A stretch of DNA of 64,000 bases from Metabacillus flavus (GTDB lineage: Bacteria; Bacillota; Bacilli; Bacillales; Bacillaceae), in the NCBI RefSeq assembly GCF_018283675.1, contig NZ_JAGVRK010000001.1, positions 2,418,001 through 2,482,000 of the forward strand, given 5' to 3'. A program made the position numbers and the translations under genes. Every line of letters begins with the position of its first letter. Position 1 is the stretch's first letter. Below the pieces are notes generated by a model. It did no database searches, was not told where the DNA came from, and worked only from the letters and a program-made list of their open reading frames with translations. Positions 565-54,110 of this stretch are shown here, piece by piece.

Positions 565-2745
565 TTAGTTTTTGCTGTATGAAACCTTCCCTGCTTCAAG
601 CTTGATCGAATAACCGCCGCCTACATACAGAAGGTCATCTTCTACTCCGTAAACACGGTACAAACTGCCTCTTTTGAGAGTCTTAACAGATTGTCCTTCC
701 TTCCAGAGCGAAACATCTCCTAAAATGGAAACCATCCCTTCAAAATAAACAGCACTGTGGTCTTTCTTCACATAATATCCATTTCCTACCTTATACCTGT
801 CCTCTTCCAAGGAATAAACTTTTACAGCTTCTCCCTTTTTAAGAGTACGGTAAACCAGTCCATTTGAAGAGTACAGTTTCATATCTTCTTTAATTAGAAC
901 TCTTCCTGTATAAAGGACTGTATTTGAATCAGCAGCTACAAAGTAGTCACCGCCTACGTTATGCCACTTGCTGTTTGAACCATACACACGAAGGTTTTCT
1001 TTTGCATTTAATGTACGAACTTCACTGAGGGATCCGTCTTGTTCATGCTTCATGAGCTTCACCGGTTTTTTCAAAATTAATCGGCCTACAGGGCTTTTCT
1101 CCTTTTCCATTTCCCATTCTGAAGGAGTTTCTGCAGCAGGTCCTTCTGAAATTCTTCCTGATGCTTTATAGGCAATTGGCTCTTTGAAGGATTTAACAAA
1201 GTTCACTGTAGCGTCCAAATCAACTGCTCCATCTGTTCTTCCCGTGCCGTTTGCACGAATCCGGTATTTATCATCTGTATGATCATACATATAGTTGTTC
1301 ACAGTAAGGGTATAAACCTTTTTATCCTGAACAGGCGAACCATCTGCCATTTTCAATTCCGTTACTTTGTTTGTTTTTCCATCCCATTTGTACGTGAAGC
1401 CGCCGATTGAACAATCAGGTCCGTACTGAGAGGAAATCTGGGCATTGACGATATCACGCAGCCCTTCACCAGTGACAGACGTTTTGACAAGGTAATTTCC
1501 AAATGGCTGAACGTTAAACAGTTCTCCCCAAGTGATATCGCCTGCATTAATAACGTCACGGATTCCTCCTCCGTTCATTAGGGCAAAATCACTTTTCATT
1601 GAAGCGTTCATTCCGTCTGCAATTAAATTGCCCAGAGCATTGTCCCCTATGGCACCTTTTTTACCGTAGCCGCCTTCAATCGCTTCATCAGTTTTTCCCA
1701 CTACCTCATTCAGCTTCGGCCCTGTTTGGTCAGCATACTTTTTAAGAATTTCTCTAACTGCCGGGTCAGGAGTGATGTTTTCCTGAACGACATCTACGAT
1801 TTCAGCCTGCTTCTTAACAATGTCATGGGTATTACGATCAATCTCTAAATCTACATCAACAAAAGCCTTGCCGTATTCCCAGGCTTGAACGAGCAATTTA
1901 TTATCCACCAGTCCATTTGCTTTCTTGTGATTGTGGGCACCGTAAATGACATCCACCTCATCATCTACTTTGTTCGCCAAATCAGCAAGCTCGCCTGTCG
2001 GAGTAACAACTCCTTCTACAGGAACGTGGGCAAGAACAACGATGGCTTTTACCCCTTGATTCTTGACTTCAGGAACATACTTATTAATCGCTTCTGCTTC
2101 ATCCGTGAATTCGATATTCTCGACAGCTGACGCTACTACATTTGCAGGAGTGGCAGTTGTTGCTACACCGATGAAGGCAATCTTTTCTCCGCCTCTTTCT
2201 ATGATTTTATAAGGTTCAAGAAGCAGCTTGCCGGTGTCTTTATAGTTTACGTTTGCTGCGACGAGCGGAAAGTTCATTCCGTCGTATCCTTTCGTTCCGT
2301 TTGCATGATCGCCGCCCTTAATAAGGCGATTCATCTCCGGAACCCCTTCATCAAATTCATGGTTGCCGACCGTTCCTATATCCAAACCAATGGATTCCAT
2401 GATTTCAACAGTCGGTTCGTCCTGCAGCAAAGCGGATACCGGCGAGCTTCCTCCTACCATATCACCTGAATGCATTGTGATGGTGTTCGGATTAGCCGCT
2501 TCTCTTTGGCGCAAATAAGCCGCAAGGTAGTCAGCCTGTCCATACTTCTTCGGGTCATTTGCCAGCGTTCCTGTCACGTCAATTTTCCCATGCAAATCAT
2601 TAATTCCCAGCAGCTGAACCTTAACATTTCCCTCTTCTGCTGATGCAGCCGGAATAGAAATAACGATAGCACTTGCCGCTGCCGTAAATGCCAGTGTGGC
2701 TTTTACCAGTCTTCGCTGAATGAATCTCCTGATTTTTCTTCTCAT
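565..2745 (-). CDS. Secreted 5'-nucleotidase (UshA/YfkN C-half type) with C-terminal SH3-like repeats
   Basis: 726 aa. The signal peptide ends near ASA (about residue 36). The calcineurin-like phosphoesterase domain shows NDLHGKID, HSGDM, VGNHEFDEG, VLAHVP and GAHNHK, followed by the 5'-nucleotidase C-terminal domain (MNGGGIRD, QPFGNYLV). The last ~140 residues hold three degenerate ~45-residue repeats with L-x-VY and V-G-G/N-G-Y-Y/S cores, resembling SH3-type wall-binding repeats. It should dephosphorylate extracellular nucleotides for phosphate and nucleoside scavenging. In B. subtilis YfkN both activities sit in one polypeptide with the cyclic phosphodiesterase first; here they are separate genes in the opposite order. 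GGAGG lies 12 nt before the ATG. Confidence 0.85.
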   Translation of the reverse strand: MRRKIRRFIQRRLVKATLAFTAAASAIVISIPAASAEEGNVKVQLLGINDLHGKIDVTGTLANDPKKYGQADYLAAYLRQREAANPNTITMHSGDMVGGSSPVSALLQDEPTVEIMESIGLDIGTVGNHEFDEGVPEMNRLIKGGDHANGTKGYDGMNFPLVAANVNYKDTGKLLLEPYKIIERGGEKIAFIGVATTATPANVVASAVENIEFTDEAEAINKYVPEVKNQGVKAIVVLAHVPVEGVVTPTGELADLANKVDDEVDVIYGAHNHKKANGLVDNKLLVQAWEYGKAFVDVDLEIDRNTHDIVKKQAEIVDVVQENITPDPAVREILKKYADQTGPKLNEVVGKTDEAIEGGYGKKGAIGDNALGNLIADGMNASMKSDFALMNGGGIRDVINAGDITWGELFNVQPFGNYLVKTSVTGEGLRDIVNAQISSQYGPDCSIGGFTYKWDGKTNKVTELKMADGSPVQDKKVYTLTVNNYMYDHTDDKYRIRANGTGRTDGAVDLDATVNFVKSFKEPIAYKASGRISEGPAAETPSEWEMEKEKSPVGRLILKKPVKLMKHEQDGSLSEVRTLNAKENLRVYGSNSKWHNVGGDYFVAADSNTVLYTGRVLIKEDMKLYSSNGLVYRTLKKGEAVKVYSLEEDRYKVGNGYYVKKDHSAVYFEGMVSILGDVSLWKEGQSVKTLKRGSLYRVYGVEDDLLYVGGGYSIKLEAGKVSYSKN

Positions 2746-44573: not shown

Positions 44574-44745
44574 GGCACCTGAAAGTTTACCCTGTTCGGC
44601 AGGGCTTTCCCCTTTGGCGGTTTACTGTACGTAAACTCTCTCCAGAGCTGCGTCAAATAAGAGTCTTTTTGCCTGAGAGATTCACAAATGTTTGCTCCTT
44701 CGGCGCCGCACACGGTCTTCGTCTGCTGCGGTCTCTCCCCTTATC
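44560..44745 (-). promoter_or_regulatory. Tandem glycine riboswitch (gcvT element)
   Basis: Two consecutive aptamers on the minus strand: the distal one begins GGGGAGAGACC, has GGCGCCGAAGGAGCAAAC and ends with ATCTCTCAGGCAAAAAGA; the second begins GGAGAGAG, has CCGCCAAAGGGGAAAGCC and ends AAACTTTCAGGTGCC. This is the classic cooperative architecture. Glycine should prevent terminator formation and turn on gcvT-gcvPA-gcvPB. Confidence 0.95.
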
Positions 44746-45049
44746 GTCATCCGCACATATTAATCCAAATAATGGTTAAACTAATAGTCAGCATTTAATG
44801 GCTGCTCCGCTGAACGGACATGGACATAGAAGCAGACAAATGATTAACAGAAAATGATGCATTTTGTAAACTTTCTAACTACTTATCATCCTACCACCAT
44901 CTTTAAAAGAGAGCAATCCTATTTTTACTGAATAATAGTTGTATAAATTCAAAAATCATTCGCTTTTAAAGCGAAATTCTTATATTTATTTACATAAAAT
45001 CATTCATTTGCCTTGAAAAGTGAACATTAGAGAGAGTCGGTGAATTAAA
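44746..45049. other. gcvT-yqhH divergent promoter region
   Basis: About 300 bp AT-rich. A TTCGCTTT/AAAGCGAA palindrome lies at ~44960-44977. It should contain both promoters; no further element was recognised. Confidence 0.45.
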
Positions 45050-47602: not shown

Positions 47603-47646
47603 TTCGACACAATTCAGCACCATTTTTTATTTTTCCATTCTATAAT
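47603..47646 (+). promoter_or_regulatory. sinI promoter with Spo0A box
   Basis: TTCGACA (0A box, minus orientation) at 47603-47609 lies near position -45 of a TATAAT at 47641-47646. The -35 region (about 47618) is a poor match, as expected for a Spo0A~P-activated promoter. Transcription would start near 47653 and include the riboswitch. Confidence 0.6.
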
Positions 47647-47710
47647 CGTGGTACAAAGGTTTTAGAGGTGAATAGAGACTATAGAATCACCTTTAGCGGG
47701 GAAAAGCTGT

Positions 47711-47829
47711 TCGGTCAGATAAAGGCAAACCTGCTGAAAAGCAGGGACGCAAAGTCACGGGTCTAAGGTTGTCCTCTTTGGGCAATGATGATCGCCGGAT
47801 TGCCTGAAATACATACGTATTTTAGGAGG
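47711..47829 (+). promoter_or_regulatory. Class I cyclic-di-GMP riboswitch upstream of sinI
   Basis: The GEMM-I core is unmistakable: GGCAAACC, then the stem CCTGCT-GAAA-AGCAGG with a GNRA loop, GGACGCAAAG, GGGTCTAAGG, and a second hairpin GGCAAT...ATTGCC (47781-47786 / 47799-47804) with the receptor-like GCCGG. A short P1 (TCAG 47715-47718 with CTGA 47804-47807) closes it. Downstream, CCTGAAATAC (47803-47812) can instead pair with GTATTTTAGG (47817-47826), capturing half of the AGGAGG ribosome site. The two folds exclude each other, so a translational ON switch for sinI is inferred. Confidence 0.88.
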
Positions 47830-47836
47830 AAATGGG

Positions 47837-47971
47837 ATGGAGAATGTAATGGTTAAAGAAGAAATGGATTTGGAGTGGAAGGAATTGATCCTGGCTGCAC
47901 TTGAAATGGGGATAAGCAAAGAAGACATTCGGCATTTCCTACAATCTAAGCAGGATGAATGCAGCAATTGA
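47837..47971 (+). CDS. sinI: SinI anti-repressor (44 aa)
   Basis: 44 aa. The SinI core is clear: MDLEWKELILAALEMGISKE, then EDIRHFLQSK, similar to B. subtilis SinI and to the SinR C-terminal helices. SinI binds SinR and frees matrix genes. AGGAGG (47824-47829) lies 7 nt before the ATG and is partly within a riboswitch expression hairpin. It has lost the C-terminal extension of B. subtilis SinI (57 aa). 91 bp upstream of sinR. Confidence 0.92.
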   Translation: MENVMVKEEMDLEWKELILAALEMGISKEDIRHFLQSKQDECSN

Positions 47972-48062: not shown

Positions 48063-48398
48063 ATGATTGGTGAACGCATACGCAAATACCGCAAGGAAAA
48101 AAATCTTTCTTTATCTGAACTAGCAGACAGGGCAGGCGTTGCAAAATCCTACCTAAGTTCGATCGAACGGAATCTTCAATCGAATCCATCGGTTCAATTT
48201 TTGGAAAAGGTTTCATCCGTGCTTGGCATTTCCGTTAATACGCTTTTAAATGGCAATACAGAAGATGCTTATGCAAATCAGCTTGATCAAGACTGGACAT
48301 CACTTGTGAAAGAAGCAATGCAGTCAGGTGTTACAAAAGATCAATTTCGAGAATTTCTGGAATTTAATAAATGGCGAATGGATCAGCCAAAAAAATAA
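48063..48398 (+). CDS. sinR: Biofilm master repressor SinR
   Basis: 111 aa, same length as B. subtilis SinR. HTH_XRE domain (SLSELADRAGVAKSYLSSIE, with RNLQSNPSVQFLEKVSSVLG) and the SinI-binding C-terminal pair of helices (LDQDWTSLVKEAMQSGVTKD...FREFLEFNKWR). It represses matrix genes, binding GTTCTTT-type boxes. Convergent with sipW. Confidence 0.96.
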   Translation: MIGERIRKYRKEKNLSLSELADRAGVAKSYLSSIERNLQSNPSVQFLEKVSSVLGISVNTLLNGNTEDAYANQLDQDWTSLVKEAMQSGVTKDQFREFLEFNKWRMDQPKK

Positions 48399-48436
48399 AC
48401 GGTCAGGACTCATGTCCCGGCCGTTTATTTTTTTGA
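48390..48436. terminator. Bidirectional terminator between sinR and sipW
   Basis: AAATAAACGGTC-GGAC and GTCC-GGCCGTTTATTT form a long stem with A/T tails on both strands. Confidence 0.8.
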
Positions 48437-48966
48437 ATATGCCGTTCTTCAATTTTAAGAATGGCTTGCCATATTGTCAAAATAGAATAAATGATTAAGA
48501 TCAGACCCGGTACAATCGCCGTCAGAGCACCGCCCTCTTTCGTCCGGGCAAAATTGCTCACGTAACCTGCATACGGCACCGTAAATCCTGTATATTGAGC
48601 GACCACGTTATCCGATTGAACCGGTGCTGAATCCTCGGACTTGTTGTTATCACCCTTAGTCCGGTATACAGCCTGTCCTCCGCTCATCACTTTTTGAGTG
48701 ATTCTATGTGTCGCCAGGTCATATTCATCCATCCAGAATGTAATGACATCGCCCGTTTCAAATCTCGTCATATCCCCGCCCGTTTTCACGGCTATCACTG
48801 AGCCGGTTTGAATACCCGGCTCCATCGATCCTGAGAGGACCGTTTTTAATTGATATCCGAAAACCTGCGGCTCTCCACCGGATGCCTTCGATGAAAAAAC
48901 GGCTAAAGCAAGTCCAATTAAAACGAAAAACAGTAAAATTGTAAATCCTCTGCTTATCAGTTTCAT
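48403..48966 (-). CDS. sipW: ER-type signal peptidase SipW (set 1)
   Basis: 187 aa. N-terminal membrane helix, catalytic Ser in VLSGSMEPGIQTGS, His in LATHRI (ER-type Ser/His instead of Ser/Lys), the TKGDNN loop, and a C-terminal membrane helix (AIVPGLILIIYSILTIW). It should remove the signal peptides of TasA and TapA. Starts at the tapA stop (4-nt overlap); last gene of tasA-tapA-sipW. Confidence 0.94.
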   Translation of the reverse strand: MKLISRGFTILLFFVLIGLALAVFSSKASGGEPQVFGYQLKTVLSGSMEPGIQTGSVIAVKTGGDMTRFETGDVITFWMDEYDLATHRITQKVMSGGQAVYRTKGDNNKSEDSAPVQSDNVVAQYTGFTVPYAGYVSNFARTKEGGALTAIVPGLILIIYSILTIWQAILKIEERHIQKNKRPGHES

Positions 48967-49652
48967 TCGGGTTCTCCTTGAGTGCCTGCCGGTTCTTCAA
49001 GAGCTTTTTCCTTCTCAGGCTCCTCCTCTGGTATGTTAGCATCTTTGGACTTTTCTTCTTTAACCCGATCCTTTACTTTCAGATCCTTTTCGGTATTCTT
49101 TATATGTTCTTCCTTGTTTTTCGGCTGTTCCTCTTCTTTATCCGGTCTCTTTTTATTCTCTTTTTTTGGAGGCGGGCATTCTGACACCGCAATGCTTGAA
49201 CTTGCAGTCCGAATCGTCTCTTTTTCGTTTCCTTCATACCCCGGCCGCTGATCCGCTTCTGCATAATAGGTGCCAGGTTCGTCCGTTTGAATGGAAAGAT
49301 GCCCCGTCTGATTCGCCCCTATTTGACCAAGTGTCCCTTCTGCTATTACCTTATCATCTTTATAAATGCGATAGCCTGTAGGTCCGATCATGCCGAATCC
49401 GGTATTACGAATTGAAAAAGGAAGATTCACTGAACTGCAAGCAGTGAGAGGCTTTTCCGGGCCTCCTTCTTCAAAACCCAGTTTGCTTCCATCCCACCAT
49501 GACCCCATTTGAAACCCAATTTCCTGAGCTCCTTTTTTGCTAAAATAAGCTTGAACGGGCGATGCCGAAATAGCTGAAACAATTAGAACGGTCAAAGAAA
49601 ATACCGATGTCCGAAATATGCGTCCCTTCTTCTTGTTCCTGCTGCTCCCCAT
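48963..49652 (-). CDS. tapA: TapA-like amyloid-fibre assembly/anchoring protein (set 1)
   Basis: 229 aa. Signal peptide ending ...SASPVQA; Cys-containing domain (SWWDGSKLGFEE, LTACSSVNLPFSIRNTGFG, GPTGYRIYKDD, AEADQRPGYEGNE, AVSECPPP) and a ~70-residue Lys/Glu-rich tail. Distantly similar to B. subtilis TapA (YqxM), sharing W-D-x-S-x-L, one Cys pair and charged tail. GGGGG 7 nt before ATG 49652. Follows tasA by 195 bp. Confidence 0.8.
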   Translation of the reverse strand: MGSSRNKKKGRIFRTSVFSLTVLIVSAISASPVQAYFSKKGAQEIGFQMGSWWDGSKLGFEEGGPEKPLTACSSVNLPFSIRNTGFGMIGPTGYRIYKDDKVIAEGTLGQIGANQTGHLSIQTDEPGTYYAEADQRPGYEGNEKETIRTASSSIAVSECPPPKKENKKRPDKEEEQPKNKEEHIKNTEKDLKVKDRVKEEKSKDANIPEEEPEKEKALEEPAGTQGEPE

Positions 49653-49846
49653 TCTTTGTCCCCCGTTCGATATGTAGAATCTGCATTTCACATGCTGGTA
49701 TATCGTCCTCATCCATTACCTTGGCGTTCATCCCGAAAAAACGAGTATAAAAAGGTAAAGGCGGATGCATCACAACCAAAATCTGCTGTTCTGCCTCCGT
49801 CCTCATACCCTTTATTATGTAAAACTACTATGATGAAAGTTTAGAA

Positions 49847-50443
49847 TTATAGTTCCTGTCCGTCGCCTTGACGTCCGTCAAATGTCCATTTTAGCTGCAG
49901 GGAATCTCCTTGGAATTGGTTTTGATCTTCGCCATTATCTACAAATTCAAATTGGACAAACAGATCATCTGTTGTACCGGCTTTAAGTCCCTTTTTCTTT
50001 TCAAAAAGCGGAGAGAAGACATTGCTTGCCACTGCGTTCGGATCCATATCCTTCAGCTCTTCAAGTGTCGTGCTGTAAATGACATCGTTAAGCTTGTCAG
50101 CATTATAAAGGAAGTTAACTTTGATGTGGCTCCCTAAATCCTCAGTATTTGAAGGCTCGCCCTCTTTGTTCGCTACGGTGTATTCAGTAGTCAGCAATAC
50201 TTTTTTGATATCCACTGTCCCGTCATTTTGAAGCTTGAAGGTGCGGGTCATCCAGTCACCAGGCTTCATATCCTTCACATTCACAATCTCAGTCGGAACC
50301 GCGTTTAAATCAAGCGTTCCGGCTGCAAAAGAGCTTGCCGCATCCGCTTTGTCATTGAAATACGCATACGTTCCCCCGCCGACTAAAGATAATCCAAGCG
50401 CTGCAGATGCAATACCCAACCCTAATTTTGTCTTGATCCCCAT
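49847..50443 (-). CDS. tasA: TasA-like amyloid matrix protein (set 1)
   Basis: 198 aa camelysin/TasA family. Signal region GIASAALGLSLVGGGTYAYF then FNDKADAASSFAAGTLDLN, with the SipW-type cleavage area before FNDKADA. Also FKLQNDGTVDIKKVLLTTEY and QFEFVDNGEDQNQFQGDSLQ. It forms extracellular fibres. ATG 50443 after GGAGG is chosen over an upstream extension with no signal logic. Promoter-proximal here, unlike B. subtilis where tasA is last. A SinR-type box lies ~290 bp upstream. Confidence 0.93.
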   Translation of the reverse strand: MGIKTKLGLGIASAALGLSLVGGGTYAYFNDKADAASSFAAGTLDLNAVPTEIVNVKDMKPGDWMTRTFKLQNDGTVDIKKVLLTTEYTVANKEGEPSNTEDLGSHIKVNFLYNADKLNDVIYSTTLEELKDMDPNAVASNVFSPLFEKKKGLKAGTTDDLFVQFEFVDNGEDQNQFQGDSLQLKWTFDGRQGDGQEL

Positions 50444-50909
50444 TTTACATTCCTCCTGATTTTTCTGTGTGTATGTGAACTCTTCACGAATAAAGAGGTT
50501 CAACCATTTTGTCATTTTCGCTCTTTTAAACTCTGCTGTTGACTTCCTCTGCAGCTCTTGGACTGCAATGAACAGGCAATCAGCAAATCAGTCTAATAGG
50601 GCTATATTTTTAAATATTCCGACAAATAAAGCTATAAGGAGGACTTTTTCCATAGTTGACAGTTTATATACAGGCTGTTAAAAATTCTTCCTTCTTGCCT
50701 CCTTTAGTTTAGCAGTCGCCTAAATTCGGCAAAAGGTTCTTTGTACCAATATATCTCCCCATCCCTTTGTACGATTTTTCCAACCGAAACTCCTTGATCT
50801 GAATTAGAAATCCTTGTAAAATGGGCTTTTTGAAAATCCCCTATTGTTCACCCTGTACCTTTCTATCCGGTACATTAGACATTTCTTGGAGCCTGAGCCA
50901 ATATATACA
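50444..50909 (-). promoter_or_regulatory. tasA set-1 control region
   Basis: No gene. It contains a SinR-type GTTCTTT at 50736-50742, a hairpin (GTTGAACCTCTT with AAGAGTTCAC, 50475-50504) in the leader, and AT-rich -10-like stretches. Promoter position is uncertain. Confidence 0.45.
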
Positions 50910-50936
50910 AAAAAACCTCGAGCAAGCTCCAGGTTA
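50910..50936 (-). terminator. Intrinsic terminator of the set-2 matrix operon
   Basis: ACCTGGAGC pairs with GCTCGAGGT (one mismatch), followed by TTTTTTT on the minus strand. Confidence 0.7.
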
Positions 50937-50940
50937 TCCG

Positions 50941-51144
50941 TTAGGCATATAAAGAAATGTTAGGCTTATGATCATACTTTTTTTCGCTGTACTTCGTTTT
51001 CATTGGAGTCACTTTAATCTGTGCATGTTCGAAAAGAGAACGCTGGAAGGTTAAATCATTCGAACATACAGGACAAATCCATTCTCCGCCATTGTGGCTG
51101 CTGTAAGAAGACTTCGCACAGCGCGGACATACTTTTTTAAACAT
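50941..51144 (-). CDS. Small zinc-ribbon protein
   Basis: 67 aa. Two CxxC pairs (VCPRCAKSS and WICPVCSND) form a zinc ribbon; the C-terminus is basic. No family name recognised. Three successive ATGs follow TTAGGAG; the third (51144) has the best spacing. Last gene of the run sipW2-DUF5658-this gene. Role unknown. Confidence 0.65.
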   Translation of the reverse strand: MFKKVCPRCAKSSYSSHNGGEWICPVCSNDLTFQRSLFEHAQIKVTPMKTKYSEKKYDHKPNISLYA

Positions 51145-51155
51145 CATCATCTCTC

Positions 51156-51455
51156 CTAAATCGTCGCATGAAAAATCCAAGTAGAGTGAAGCACCATCAC
51201 AAACGTATATAAAATGCAGGCTGCAAATGTAACGCCCTTTAAAATTTTCGTTGTCTTAAGCGGAATTAAAAACACCATGCAAAGCATAAGCAAGGAGAAC
51301 ATCAGCTTCACTCCTATAAACGCAACAGGAGTCCACTCATACAGGCTTTTCATTAGAGGGTTCGCTTCCTTTATAAAACCGAGTTCAAGACCGGCTAATG
51401 TGATAAATAAATCAATTGCATTGACAATCGCCAGGTAAATGAAAGCAGTTTTCAT
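51156..51455 (-). CDS. DUF5658-like membrane protein
   Basis: 99 aa with three predicted membrane helices (FIYLAIVNAIDLFITLAGLE, GVKLMFSLLMLCMVFLIPL, TFAACILYTFVMVLHSTWIF). The N-terminal NAIDLFIT...EANPLM pattern fits DUF5658. ATG 51455 follows AAAGGAG. Between sipW2 and the zinc-ribbon gene. Function unknown. Confidence 0.65.
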   Translation of the reverse strand: MKTAFIYLAIVNAIDLFITLAGLELGFIKEANPLMKSLYEWTPVAFIGVKLMFSLLMLCMVFLIPLKTTKILKGVTFAACILYTFVMVLHSTWIFHATI

Positions 51456-51512
51456 TGGAAACATCTCCTTTGGCGTACAGGCCATTATTTATGCTATGCC
51501 TGGAATGACAGA

Positions 51513-52061
51513 TTATGCGCCCTTCGGTTCCTCCAGCCTGGAAATCGCCCGCCAAATAGTCATAACGGAGTACCCGATCAGCAGCAAACCAGGAAGTATG
51601 AACAGGACCGCATTTCCTTCTTTAGACTTAGCATATTCAATAAAATAGCCTATATACGGGACTGTGAAACCTGTGTAATGGGCTGTCACGTTTTCGGCCA
51701 GCACCGGTTTCGAGTCAGCCGTTTTATTGTTATCTCCCTTTGTGGTGTAGATCACGGCATTGCCGCTTGCCTTTTTATCTATAATTCTATGGGTGGCAAG
51801 ATCCGTTTCATCCATTTTAAAAGTGATGACATCGCCTGCCTTGAAACGCTTCATATCGCCGCCAATTTTAACCGCTATTATTGAGCCCGTCTGTATTCCT
51901 GGTTCCATGGAACCTGAAAGAACTGTTTTCAACTCGTATCCTAAGAATTGGGGATCTCCTCCGGAAGCCCTTGAAGTCAGAACGAGAATAATCATGGCCA
52001 ATAGGATAATGAAAAGAAGAAACGATATTGCCTGGTTGAATAGTTTCAGTGCATATCTCAT
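51513..52061 (-). CDS. ER-type signal peptidase SipW paralogue (set 2)
   Basis: 182 aa. VLSGSMEPGIQTGS (Ser), LATHRIIDK (His), TKGDNN, helices at both ends. Closely similar to the set-1 SipW over GGDPQFLGYELKTVLSGSM. Overlaps tapA2 by 4 nt, as in set 1, so it probably processes TasA2 and TapA2. Confidence 0.9.
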   Translation of the reverse strand: MRYALKLFNQAISFLLFIILLAMIILVLTSRASGGDPQFLGYELKTVLSGSMEPGIQTGSIIAVKIGGDMKRFKAGDVITFKMDETDLATHRIIDKKASGNAVIYTTKGDNNKTADSKPVLAENVTAHYTGFTVPYIGYFIEYAKSKEGNAVLFILPGLLLIGYSVMTIWRAISRLEEPKGA

Positions 52062-52759
52062 TCATTGTTTCCTCCTTCACTATGATTATTCTCCTCAATT
52101 GGCTGTAAAGAGACATCCGCTTCCTTCTCATCAGGTTTTTCTTCAACGGCTTCTTCTTTTTCTTCGGAAACCGCTTCCCCATCCTTAGCAGGTTCTTCTA
52201 CTTCAGTTCCTGGTTCCTTATCATCTTTAGATTCGGTTTCCTTATCATCAATAGGCTCCACTTTCTCCTCTTCTGGAGGCGGAGGGCATTCACCAACAAT
52301 AACTGTCCGGCTAGCTGTCTTTGTCACTTCACTCTCATTCCCGGCATACCCCGGCCGCTGATCCACTTCAGCCATATAGCTTCCAGGAGAATCTGCATTA
52401 ATAGACAGAGTAACGGTTTGACTGGACTGAACAATTCCCAGAGAACCCTCTGTTATCAATTCACCATCCTTAAAGATTCTATAAGAAGTAGAGCCTATCA
52501 TGGTAAAACCAGTGTTCGTAAGCGGAAAGTCTATTCTGACAGGCTTGCAGCTGGTTAAGTCTTCACCTGCAGGGATGTCTTCAAAAACCAAGCTGCTCTT
52601 ATCCCACCATGTACCGGCTTGAATTTGGATACCCTGCTCCTGCTGATCAGTGAAATATGCCTCTGTTGGAGAGGCTGAATAAGTGAGGATTAACAAGAAT
52701 GTATAAAGTAGTGCGGATCGTTTAAATAGAGAATTATTTCTAGAGTTTATGCGCCGAAT
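52058..52759 (-). CDS. TapA-like assembly protein (set 2), apparently started at ATT
   Basis: 233 aa if started at ATT 52759. That start gives RRINSRNN, a hydrophobic signal (YTFLLILTYS) and ASPTEA, aligned with set 1. No ATG, GTG or TTG with a ribosome site exists upstream of TTG 52696, which would cut into the signal; GGGGG lies 9 nt before the ATT. Mature domain: TWWDKSSLVFED, LTSCKPVRIDFPLTNTGF, STSYRIFKDG, AEVDQRPGYAGNE, GECPPPPEEE, then an acidic Glu/Asp/Lys tail. More acidic than set 1. Confidence 0.78.
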   Translation of the reverse strand: MRRINSRNNSLFKRSALLYTFLLILTYSASPTEAYFTDQQEQGIQIQAGTWWDKSSLVFEDIPAGEDLTSCKPVRIDFPLTNTGFTMIGSTSYRIFKDGELITEGSLGIVQSSQTVTLSINADSPGSYMAEVDQRPGYAGNESEVTKTASRTVIVGECPPPPEEEKVEPIDDKETESKDDKEPGTEVEEPAKDGEAVSEEKEEAVEEKPDEKEADVSLQPIEENNHSEGGNNE

Positions 52760-52797
52760 CGTCTCCAGCCCCCGTTCTTATATGGTGGTAGAGTAAT

Positions 52798-52830
52798 GAA
52801 AAAAGAAGACAGGAAGTTCCTGCCTTCCCT
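52798..52830 (-). terminator. Terminator/attenuator between tasA2 and tapA2
   Basis: AAGGCAGGA and TCCTGTCTT form a 9-bp stem (one wobble) followed by CTTTTTTC on the minus strand, downstream of the tasA2 stop and upstream of tapA2. It may set more tasA2 than tapA2 mRNA. Confidence 0.7.
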
Positions 52831-52838
52831 TCTTAAAC

Positions 52839-53432
52839 TTATTTTTCTTCGTTCTTGCCTTGATATGCTTCAAACGTCCACTTCATTTTTAAAGAGTCTC
52901 CTTGGAATTCGTTCTGATCCTCTCCGTTATCAACAAATTCAAATTGCACATAAAGATCATCTGTTGATCCAGCTCTAAGGCCTTTTCTCTCAAACAATGG
53001 AGTGAATACGTTTTTGTCGATTACATTCGGATCCATGTCTTTTAGTTCACTAAGTTTCGTACTATAGATAACATCGTTTAATTTGTCTGCATTCCACAAG
53101 AAGTTTACTTTAATGTGATCTGCAAAATCCTCAACGTTAGCAGCAGCTCCATCCTTATTAACCACAGAGTATTCTGTTGTTAGCAAGACTTTCTTAATAT
53201 CCAAAGACCCGCTGTTAACTAATTTAAATGCACGATCCATTGTGTCACCTGGTTTGATGTTTTGAACATCAATTACTGTAGTCGGATCCACATTCAAATC
53301 AAGCGTTCCAGCTGCGAAAGATGAAGAAGCCTCTGCTTTATCATTGAAATATGCATATGTACCCCCGCCTACTAGTGAAAGACCAAGTGCTGCTGATGCT
53401 AATCCCAAACCTAATTTCTTTTTAACACCCAT
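52839..53432 (-). CDS. TasA-like amyloid matrix protein (set 2)
   Basis: 197 aa, strongly similar to set-1 TasA through the signal region (AALGLSLVGGGTYAYF) and mature FNDKAEASSSFAAGTLDLN, LDIKKVLLTTEY, VNFLWNADKLNDVIYST and QFEFVDNGEDQNEFQGDSLK. It differs most around residues 50-70 and 85-110. Probably a second fibre subunit. GGGGGAT-type ribosome site; 65 bp after sipW3. Confidence 0.9.
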   Translation of the reverse strand: MGVKKKLGLGLASAALGLSLVGGGTYAYFNDKAEASSSFAAGTLDLNVDPTTVIDVQNIKPGDTMDRAFKLVNSGSLDIKKVLLTTEYSVVNKDGAAANVEDFADHIKVNFLWNADKLNDVIYSTKLSELKDMDPNVIDKNVFTPLFERKGLRAGSTDDLYVQFEFVDNGEDQNEFQGDSLKMKWTFEAYQGKNEEK

Positions 53433-53497
53433 TGTAAAAATCCCCCTAGAAAATTAATTTATATTGAACTTTTCTTTTTACAGAAAAGAATCAATCA

Positions 53498-54007
53498 CTA
53501 GTAATCAATTTTTGCCTTCGCTTGCTGAAAAAGCAGTTTATAAGCTAAATATAAAAAGAAAAGCCCTGGCAGGATGAGTAGTACAAGAAAGCTGCTGGTG
53601 TTAGATTGTATGTAGATAAAAAGATAGCCTGCAAATGGAATCGTTAATCCAGTATAGGAGCCAACAATATTTTCCCTCTTAACTAATTCACGATCAATTC
53701 CATCGTTTGCATCACCCTTTGTCCTGTATGTTTGATTATTGAGGACTTCATGAATACGATGGGTTATCAATATTTCATCTTTCGTTTTGAAGGTAATGAT
53801 TTCTCCCTTTTGAAGAACTTCTTTCGCTTCCAGTTTTTTTATTAATATCATGGATCCTGTGCTGAACACTGGCTCCATTGAACCGGATAAAACATTCTTT
53901 AAGTGAAAAGGAAGGAATTGGTTAGTGTTACCAAGAAGTAATACATAAAACAGAATGCCTAATAGAAACGTGAATCTTAAAGCATAAATCCGAATATTAT
54001 TGAACAT
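53498..54007 (-). CDS. Divergent SipW-type signal peptidase (third)
   Basis: 169 aa. VLSGSMEPVFSTGS (Ser), ILITHRIHE (His), TKGDANDGID, C-terminal helix (FLVLLILPGLFFLYLAY). More diverged than the other two and lacks their TASGGDPQ-like segment. First gene before tasA2, divergent from sinR2. ATG 54007 after GGGTG is preferred over one five codons earlier. Confidence 0.82.
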   Translation of the reverse strand: MFNNIRIYALRFTFLLGILFYVLLLGNTNQFLPFHLKNVLSGSMEPVFSTGSMILIKKLEAKEVLQKGEIITFKTKDEILITHRIHEVLNNQTYRTKGDANDGIDRELVKRENIVGSYTGLTIPFAGYLFIYIQSNTSSFLVLLILPGLFFLYLAYKLLFQQAKAKIDY

Positions 54008-54110
54008 TTTGTCACCCATCACTCGTTCTCAATAAAGAATAACCTGTCCTGATTATATCTTATGGCCTATTTAAATGAAAAATCTCGAAAAATGCCATAT
54101 TTTTCATTTT

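Follow-up and report, generated by a model that had tools for sequence, protein, structure and literature searches.

The leader of sinI in the window, by which we mean the whole analysed stretch of 64 kb, carries a complete c-di-GMP-I (GEMM-I) aptamer at 47715..47808 on the plus strand, 28 nt 5' of the gene. Judging from the modelled structures, this is very probably a c-di-GMP-I riboswitch that turns on the translation of sinI. Aptamer, platform, mutual exclusion, conservation and covariation were computed here.

Locus and aptamer

The gene sinI (47837..47971, plus strand) encodes the anti-repressor SinI, a protein of 44 aa that adjoins sinR and matches PF08671 with 45.9 bits; its Shine-Dalgarno sequence AGGAGG is located, by sequence, at 47824..47829 (plus strand). 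The stop codon lies 91 nt before the start codon of sinR (48063..48398, plus strand), which encodes, according to domain matches, a biofilm repressor of 111 aa with an HTH and a SinI-type C-terminal domain. Among named records, those with the most similar SinR are Bacillus sp. SJS (100% identity) and Metabacillus mangrovi (93%). The genome to which the window belongs revealed 9 GGDEF and 6 EAL matches.

A covariance-model scan, proposed in a first-pass annotation of this DNA as a check on its claim of a complete GEMM-I aptamer in the 5' leader of sinI, bore the claim out with 72–78 bits. RF01051 (gathering score 35 bits) scored 78 bits with an E value of 1.9e-15 at 47714-47807 (genome contig 2465714-2465807), and RF03167 (c-di-GMP-I-GGC) scored 72 bits at 47715-47808 on the plus strand when the 64-kb window was compared with all of Rfam. 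In the Rfam alignment, the P1 5' strand UCAG (47715..47718, plus strand) pairs with CUGA at 47804-47807, the P1 strand of the annotation. Its placement of P3, ending in CC at 47803-47804, was wrong: the P3 3' strand ends at U47801, and C47803 is the unpaired equivalent of C92. Using the Vc2 numbering of PMC11218506, we assigned the ligand-contact equivalents G20, A47 and C92 to G47724, A47751 and C47803. The aptamer is identified by Rfam models, ligand-contact positions and covariation.

The GGC variant ranked first in the Rfam clan competition, but was rejected as a class, since its printed consensus ACGCGAAG has G after ACGC, where the window reads ACGCAAAG with A47751; the G for A47 is taken from that printed consensus as the defining change of the variant. 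Ordinary c-di-GMP-I is the better label because of this A, and binding of c-di-GMP is predicted. It is extremely unlikely that the aptamer recognises another cyclic dinucleotide, as a variant of the GGC or cGAMP type would: apart from the rank of RF03167, this idea could only appeal to an A at the G20 position in one of 85 sinI-linked rows of the order, while C92 is C and A47 is A in all 85 and G20 is G in 84. Across all 90 inspected order rows, A47 is A in 90 and G20 is G in 89, and the window itself scores 78 bits with RF01051. Compared with the RF01051 class, the RNA of the window is alike in aptamer sequence, P1b, P2 and P3, the GAAA loop and the G20, A47 and C92 equivalents; it differs in carrying a very conserved anti-Shine-Dalgarno hairpin without a terminator and in controlling a protein anti-repressor, whereby an entire repressor regulon would come under a single RNA sensor.

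Some further features of the surroundings may be recorded. Only two RNAs reached the Rfam gathering score in the window, the sinI aptamer and an ordinary glycine riboswitch (44651-44750, minus strand, 68.4 bits) before minus-strand genes named gcvT-gcvP by eye. Convergent to sinR, the minus strand displays repeated cassettes at 48403-54022, which comprise a signal-peptidase-like membrane protein, a charged protein of secreted appearance and camelysin; camelysin (PF12389) is present in two copies, and one weak S26 match lies below the cut-off. These cassettes resemble duplicated tapA-sipW-tasA units. Control of this neighbouring operon by SinR via its box is unsupported, with 6 SinR-box cores in 46-56 kb and 31 in the 64 kb. 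RF01051 found four c-di-GMP-I sites in the whole genome, the sinI one included; the other three stand before a secreted-looking ORF (L001, by eye), upstream of a GH114-like protein of 294 aa (L004) and seemingly before an ORF of 154 aa (L002).

Expression platform and proposed mechanism

The anti-Shine-Dalgarno hairpin (47803..47826, plus strand; arms 47803-47812 and 47817-47826, loop 47813-47816) is a perfect helix of 10 bp, CCTGAAATAC-ATAC-GTATTTTAGG, and captures half of AGGAGG exactly as first proposed. It overlaps the C92 equivalent, the P1 3' strand (47804-47807) and the first AGG of AGGAGG. The segment 47799-47842 folds with -11.3 kcal/mol (z -4.49), and none of 200 shuffles was as good. 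The mean unpaired probability of the Shine-Dalgarno sequence is 0.45 in the free RNA and 0.84 with aptamer and P1 enforced; by folding, closure of the aptamer and sequestration of the Shine-Dalgarno sequence exclude each other in the window. Computed with ViennaRNA, in which neither ligand nor tertiary energy is counted, the P1 state is 8.1 kcal/mol less stable than the hairpin state; this cost has to be met by energy from the ligand, by tertiary contacts or by folding during transcription.

Without ligand, the 10-bp hairpin at 47803-47826 would form, taking C47803 (C92) and the P1 3' strand and blocking half of the Shine-Dalgarno sequence. With c-di-GMP bound, aptamer and P1 would hold 47803-47807 and leave the Shine-Dalgarno sequence free, and only an inner stem of 5 bp (47808-47812/47817-47821) could remain. 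SinI would be made and bind SinR, and the matrix genes would be derepressed. We infer four parts of this scheme, namely ligand binding, the direction of the effect in the cell, the action of SinI on SinR, which is established in B. subtilis, and the control by Spo0A. The same mechanism, with a ligand-closed P1 freeing the Shine-Dalgarno sequence and SinI ON, had been put forward in the first-pass annotation, and anatomy, conservation in many families and covariation of the platform argue for it at the level of a model.

Pairing of the platform is widespread. Among 116 distinct platforms (3 further rows without anchor being left out), 95 have at least 0.3 of the Shine-Dalgarno bases in pairs with the 8 nt that begin with C92, and the standard left arm occurs in 87. 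Homologues without platform pairing, named beforehand as a finding that would speak against the mechanism, are encountered at the edges, where 17 of the 116 fall below 0.1, at least L223 and L228 being mis-anchored by eye. Of 62 named leaders tried, 61 could be anchored, and 48 of them pair at 9 or 10 of the 10 hairpin positions. Even rewritten arms retain the pairing, with 9/10 pairs for CCAATAATAC/GTATAATTGG in L098 (p 0.02) and, for CCGAAG/CTTCGG in L145, 8/10 over the full arm (p 0.012).

These data also bear on two other ways in which the RNA might work. The riboswitch could act on the level of the sinI mRNA, by termination, Rho or decay, instead of on ribosome access, and in the accessible part of PMC11218506 the riboswitch Bc1 of B. 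thuringiensis is described as acting mainly on transcription. The hairpin of the window, though, ends inside the Shine-Dalgarno sequence with no U-run behind it, and both the frequency of the standard left arm and the near-complete pairing of most anchored leaders are at odds with this proposal, which we regard as improbable. Less probable still is a ligand that switches SinI off, the bound form hiding the Shine-Dalgarno sequence in another way; such a design would fit with a site only half sequestered in the free state, but enforcing P1 makes the site freer, and C92 and P1 compete directly with the hairpin.

Covariation

In alignment A3 (90 rows), 98.1% of the cells are paired, and in 20 of 28 pairs both bases have changed; none of 500 shuffles reached any of the five measures, and slid versions displayed at most 50.2% paired cells. 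In the platform helix, both partners have changed in 7 of 10 pairs (18 cells), a result biased in favour of the hairpin, as the A3 rows were found with, and aligned to, a model containing it. The aptamer alone (A4, 36 rows) revealed 97.7% paired cells and two-sided changes in 11 of 18 pairs. In A2 (24 rows, MAFFT), the hairpin is paired in all cells and varies by G-U only. P1 is paired in 76% of the cells of the MAFFT alignment and shows no covariation above shuffles, which is uninformative because MAFFT puts the P1 5' strand out of register.

Promoter

A Spo0A-box core TTCGACA (47603..47609, minus strand; TGTCGAA on that strand) lies 38 nt before TATAAT, a likely -10 hexamer for sigma-A in the sinI promoter (47641..47646, plus strand), which is assigned by sequence and by its recurrence in leaders; TTCGACA/TGTCGAA is what we take to be the core of the Spo0A box. 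With either strand counted, 22 of the 62 intact named leaders, that of the window among them, have a perfect core upstream and the other 40 have none, the chance level in these 62 leaders being 0.88 on average and 4 at most in 200 letter shuffles. In 16 of the 22 core-bearing leaders, TATAAT follows exactly 38 nt downstream, the spacing of the window; of the 62 leaders, 45 have TATAAT in the 160 nt before the aptamer, the hexamer having been counted without a shuffle control. The conserved box supports, but does not show, a Spo0A input to the sinI promoter, where Spo0A~P would act on transcription via the box at 47603. As to the AND gate of Spo0A~P and c-di-GMP suggested by the first-pass annotation, its c-di-GMP half stands on anatomy, conservation and covariation, and its Spo0A half has the conserved box behind it.

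Distribution among relatives

Conservation in relatives had been recommended as a further check and was substantial. One SinR scan yielded a named set of 80 SinR loci of 116 relatives. In 60 of them, sinR is immediately preceded by a SinI ORF, and for 55 of these 60 loci Rfam identified an aptamer in the leader at the gathering score. Scanning both strands of the other 20 loci uncovered 9 standalone SinI ORFs, of which 6 are inverted behind sinR with an aptamer in front, two (L131, L140) have no aptamer in front, and one (L124) was left out of the count because it stands at the locus edge. In total, 61 of 68 judgeable named standalone sinI leaders contain the aptamer, 6 with sinI inverted behind sinR, at a distance of 18-35 nt from the start codon as chosen (for L120 and L127, a mechanical choice of start gives 7 and 17 nt, respectively). 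The remaining seven (L086, L110, L119, L129, L142, L131 and L140) have no aptamer at gathering score, and all but L140 also lacked an aptamer match at E up to 0.05 in a relaxed search. Control of a sipW/tasA operon by the minus-strand aptamers downstream of sinR was considered and rejected, as an inverted sinI follows them. In an Alkalihalobacillus MAG (L088), a second c-di-GMP-I aptamer (949-1039, plus strand, 66.8 bits) precedes the sinI aptamer by about 600 nt.

Within the own family, 32 of 34 sinR loci of genera g1 and g3-g6 match the aptamer-only model R2, with no match in L051 and L060; the 34 loci come from 36 genomes, the window's own and G066 being left out, and 22 of them were picked because a match was already visible upstream of SinI. 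In five genomes of genus g3 (G050-G053, G056), the sinI site was the only class-I site found.

For the order, we used the composite model R1 (aptamer plus hairpin, from 24 leaders), which, with E limited to 0.001, matches in 264 of 299 genomes, a number that is no count of sinI, many matches being likely other c-di-GMP riboswitches. Of the 90 matches inspected, 85 precede a SinI ORF and come from 85 genomes that represent 37 genera and, by family numbers transferred manually, 24 families; the 90 comprise the top 30, the window and close kin of the training rows among them, and 60 chosen at 86-117 bits, with about 20 listed matches in that range skipped. From the 23 families in which no inspected match was linked to sinI, 25 genomes were examined; 13 revealed no SinI-domain match, and 8 of the remaining 12 encode a short SinI immediately preceded by an aptamer (G083, G086, G096 with two tandem copies, G101, G111, G124, G265 and G353). 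SinI without an aptamer was found in G085, G116 and G119, and G097 gave only a weak match in a longer ORF. Extra SinI copies without an aptamer are present in G086 (two) and G096 (one), while G265 and G353 have a sinIR copy without an aptamer and, elsewhere, a 40-aa SinI paralogue with one. In family f44, an aptamer-bearing 40-aa SinI paralogue lies beside a second SinR-like gene (L276, L277), the main sinIR loci (L278, L279) being without an aptamer. In L282 (G096:C16:30000-32000), two tandem sinI genes precede sinR, each with its own c-di-GMP-I aptamer.

Among 20 loci examined outside the order (plus 2 inside it), SinI follows an aptamer in 7, and the other 13 showed none. Five of the seven, all of family f50 (L300, L305, L306, L307, L318), have the aptamer and then sinI convergent to sinR, and four of their five SinR proteins were extracted, with a 57-64% match to named records. 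In L308 (f50) and L320 (f60), SinI follows an aptamer in other settings, the 51-aa protein of L320 being labelled SinR-like by the script and read by us as SinI. From the 6 named and the 5 f50 loci, it follows that the linkage of aptamer and sinI survives inversion of sinI behind sinR.

Some R1 matches lie before other genes. In L268 (G173:C82:52348-52471), the match stands directly before a Spo0E-like protein of 62 aa (PF09388, 51.4 bits), and in some relatives the Spo0A phosphorelay may be a further point of contact for c-di-GMP. In L255 and L267 (G118, G330), it precedes a cysteine-containing protein of 39-46 aa (..KKKHRYxxYTxxCIxCGKKK), for the 39-aa form of which no Pfam match was found.

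The sinI leader of Bacillus sensu stricto

Genus g2 is taken to be Bacillus sensu stricto. The SinI of its locus L065 is identical over 57/57 residues to PDB 1b0n_B, from an entry that we take to be of B. subtilis, and L065 is the only g2 locus tied by sequence. Of 44 sinR loci fetched, 43 have sinI upstream and one (L185) lacks it. In all 43 leaders, the hairpin is retained as CTGAAATAC..GTATTTTRGG or in a closely similar form, and 26 of 43 have the TTCGACA core. Model R2, applied to 49 loci with a limit of E 10, gave 17 matches, of which not one was significant (best E 0.43). R1 matched 43 of 44 loci with E 5.7e-8 to 0.12, which is no evidence of an aptamer because the hairpin carries these matches, and an intact aptamer in g2 was rejected.

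Pieces of the aptamer are nevertheless discernible. In L065-like leaders, ATGGCCGGACTG corresponds to the P3 3' strand and stands in exact register before the hairpin; for most leaders, 2e-5 to 4e-4 of positions, pooled over the same g2 loci, score as well (L175: 9.5e-4). A second g2 lineage (17 loci, e.g., L172 with CAGTCAAAAGCAAAG..GACGCAAG) has no remnant of the P3 3' strand and keeps pieces of the 5' core, with p up to 0.02 in 200 dinucleotide shuffles per leader, a level reached by 3 of the 26 other g2 leaders (L149, L152, L181) and not by the rest, L065 included. Loci within a g2 lineage are not independent. L129 (Heyndrickxia), with 44 bits for R1 and only 11.8 bits (E 0.68) for R2, may be a further decayed copy.

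By its sequence, the textbook (B. subtilis-type) sinI leader looks like a decayed riboswitch, and the simplest reading is that g2 lost the aptamer and not that it never had one, since the aptamer is present in other genera of its family and in many further families. The hairpin might also be old in g2 and the aptamer a gain of other lineages, as would fit with the lack of any significant match to the aptamer-only model. The aptamer in 32 of 34 loci of other genera of the same family and in many other families, together with the P3 3'-strand remnants in exact register in one lineage and the 5'-core remnants in another, makes such a gain unlikely. On the reading of loss, the ancestral entry of the Bacillales into biofilm formation was probably sinI under a c-di-GMP RNA switch, from which Bacillus sensu stricto would have lost the sensor while keeping the Shine-Dalgarno hairpin as a fossil, control by Spo0A only being derived.

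Relation to published work

The bare arrangement, of which the first-pass annotation knew no earlier description, had in fact been recorded: in an RNA-seq study of 2015 (PMC4342826), a putative c-di-GMP riboswitch before sinI (BMMGA3_08510) of B. methanolicus MGA3 takes up one row of Table 4 and one sentence in the part of the article accessible to us. It is the same arrangement, given there, as far as that part goes, without platform, mechanism, conservation or evolutionary analysis. This was the only article found to place a riboswitch on sinI, and no account of its platform, breadth, relocation or remnant turned up, in a literature search outside of which lay most subscription journals, bioRxiv and supplements; the novelty claim of the annotation held only in part.

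For Paenibacillus sp. FSL P4, the available text of PMC9943018 proposes an antisense-acting c-di-GMP-I riboswitch on a SinR-like gene. It faces the sinR-like gene in the layout of L300, L305-L307, L318 and 6 named loci; it is read there as antisense control of sinR, whereas the comparable riboswitches here are leaders of a convergent small sinI. By analogy, the published riboswitch may belong to an unannotated sinI, which would be the simpler account. Bc1 and Bc2 of B. thuringiensis (PMC11218506, in part) are of the same riboswitch class, with Bc2 described as an ON riboswitch; their targets are the chemotaxis gene mcpE and cap, and Bc1 has a long platform and a dual terminator. An upregulation of sinI at high c-di-GMP in B. 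thuringiensis (PMC7793685) is compatible with a link, the text available to us drawing no tie to a riboswitch. According to the accessible part of PMC4879592, c-di-GMP plays no part in controlling the formation of B. subtilis biofilms, which is what the g2 remnant would predict; effects on B. subtilis biofilms upon overproduction of cyclase parts or the yda operon (PMC5422440, in part) speak against a clean contrast.

The RNA class and the type of switch are already known, and the interest lies in the circuit and its evolution. c-di-GMP is the general biofilm signal of bacteria, and a riboswitch on the antagonist of SinR would give it a direct route to the master repressor in many related genera. 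The apparently disabled switch in its sinI leader offers a reason why the model species would lack this c-di-GMP route.
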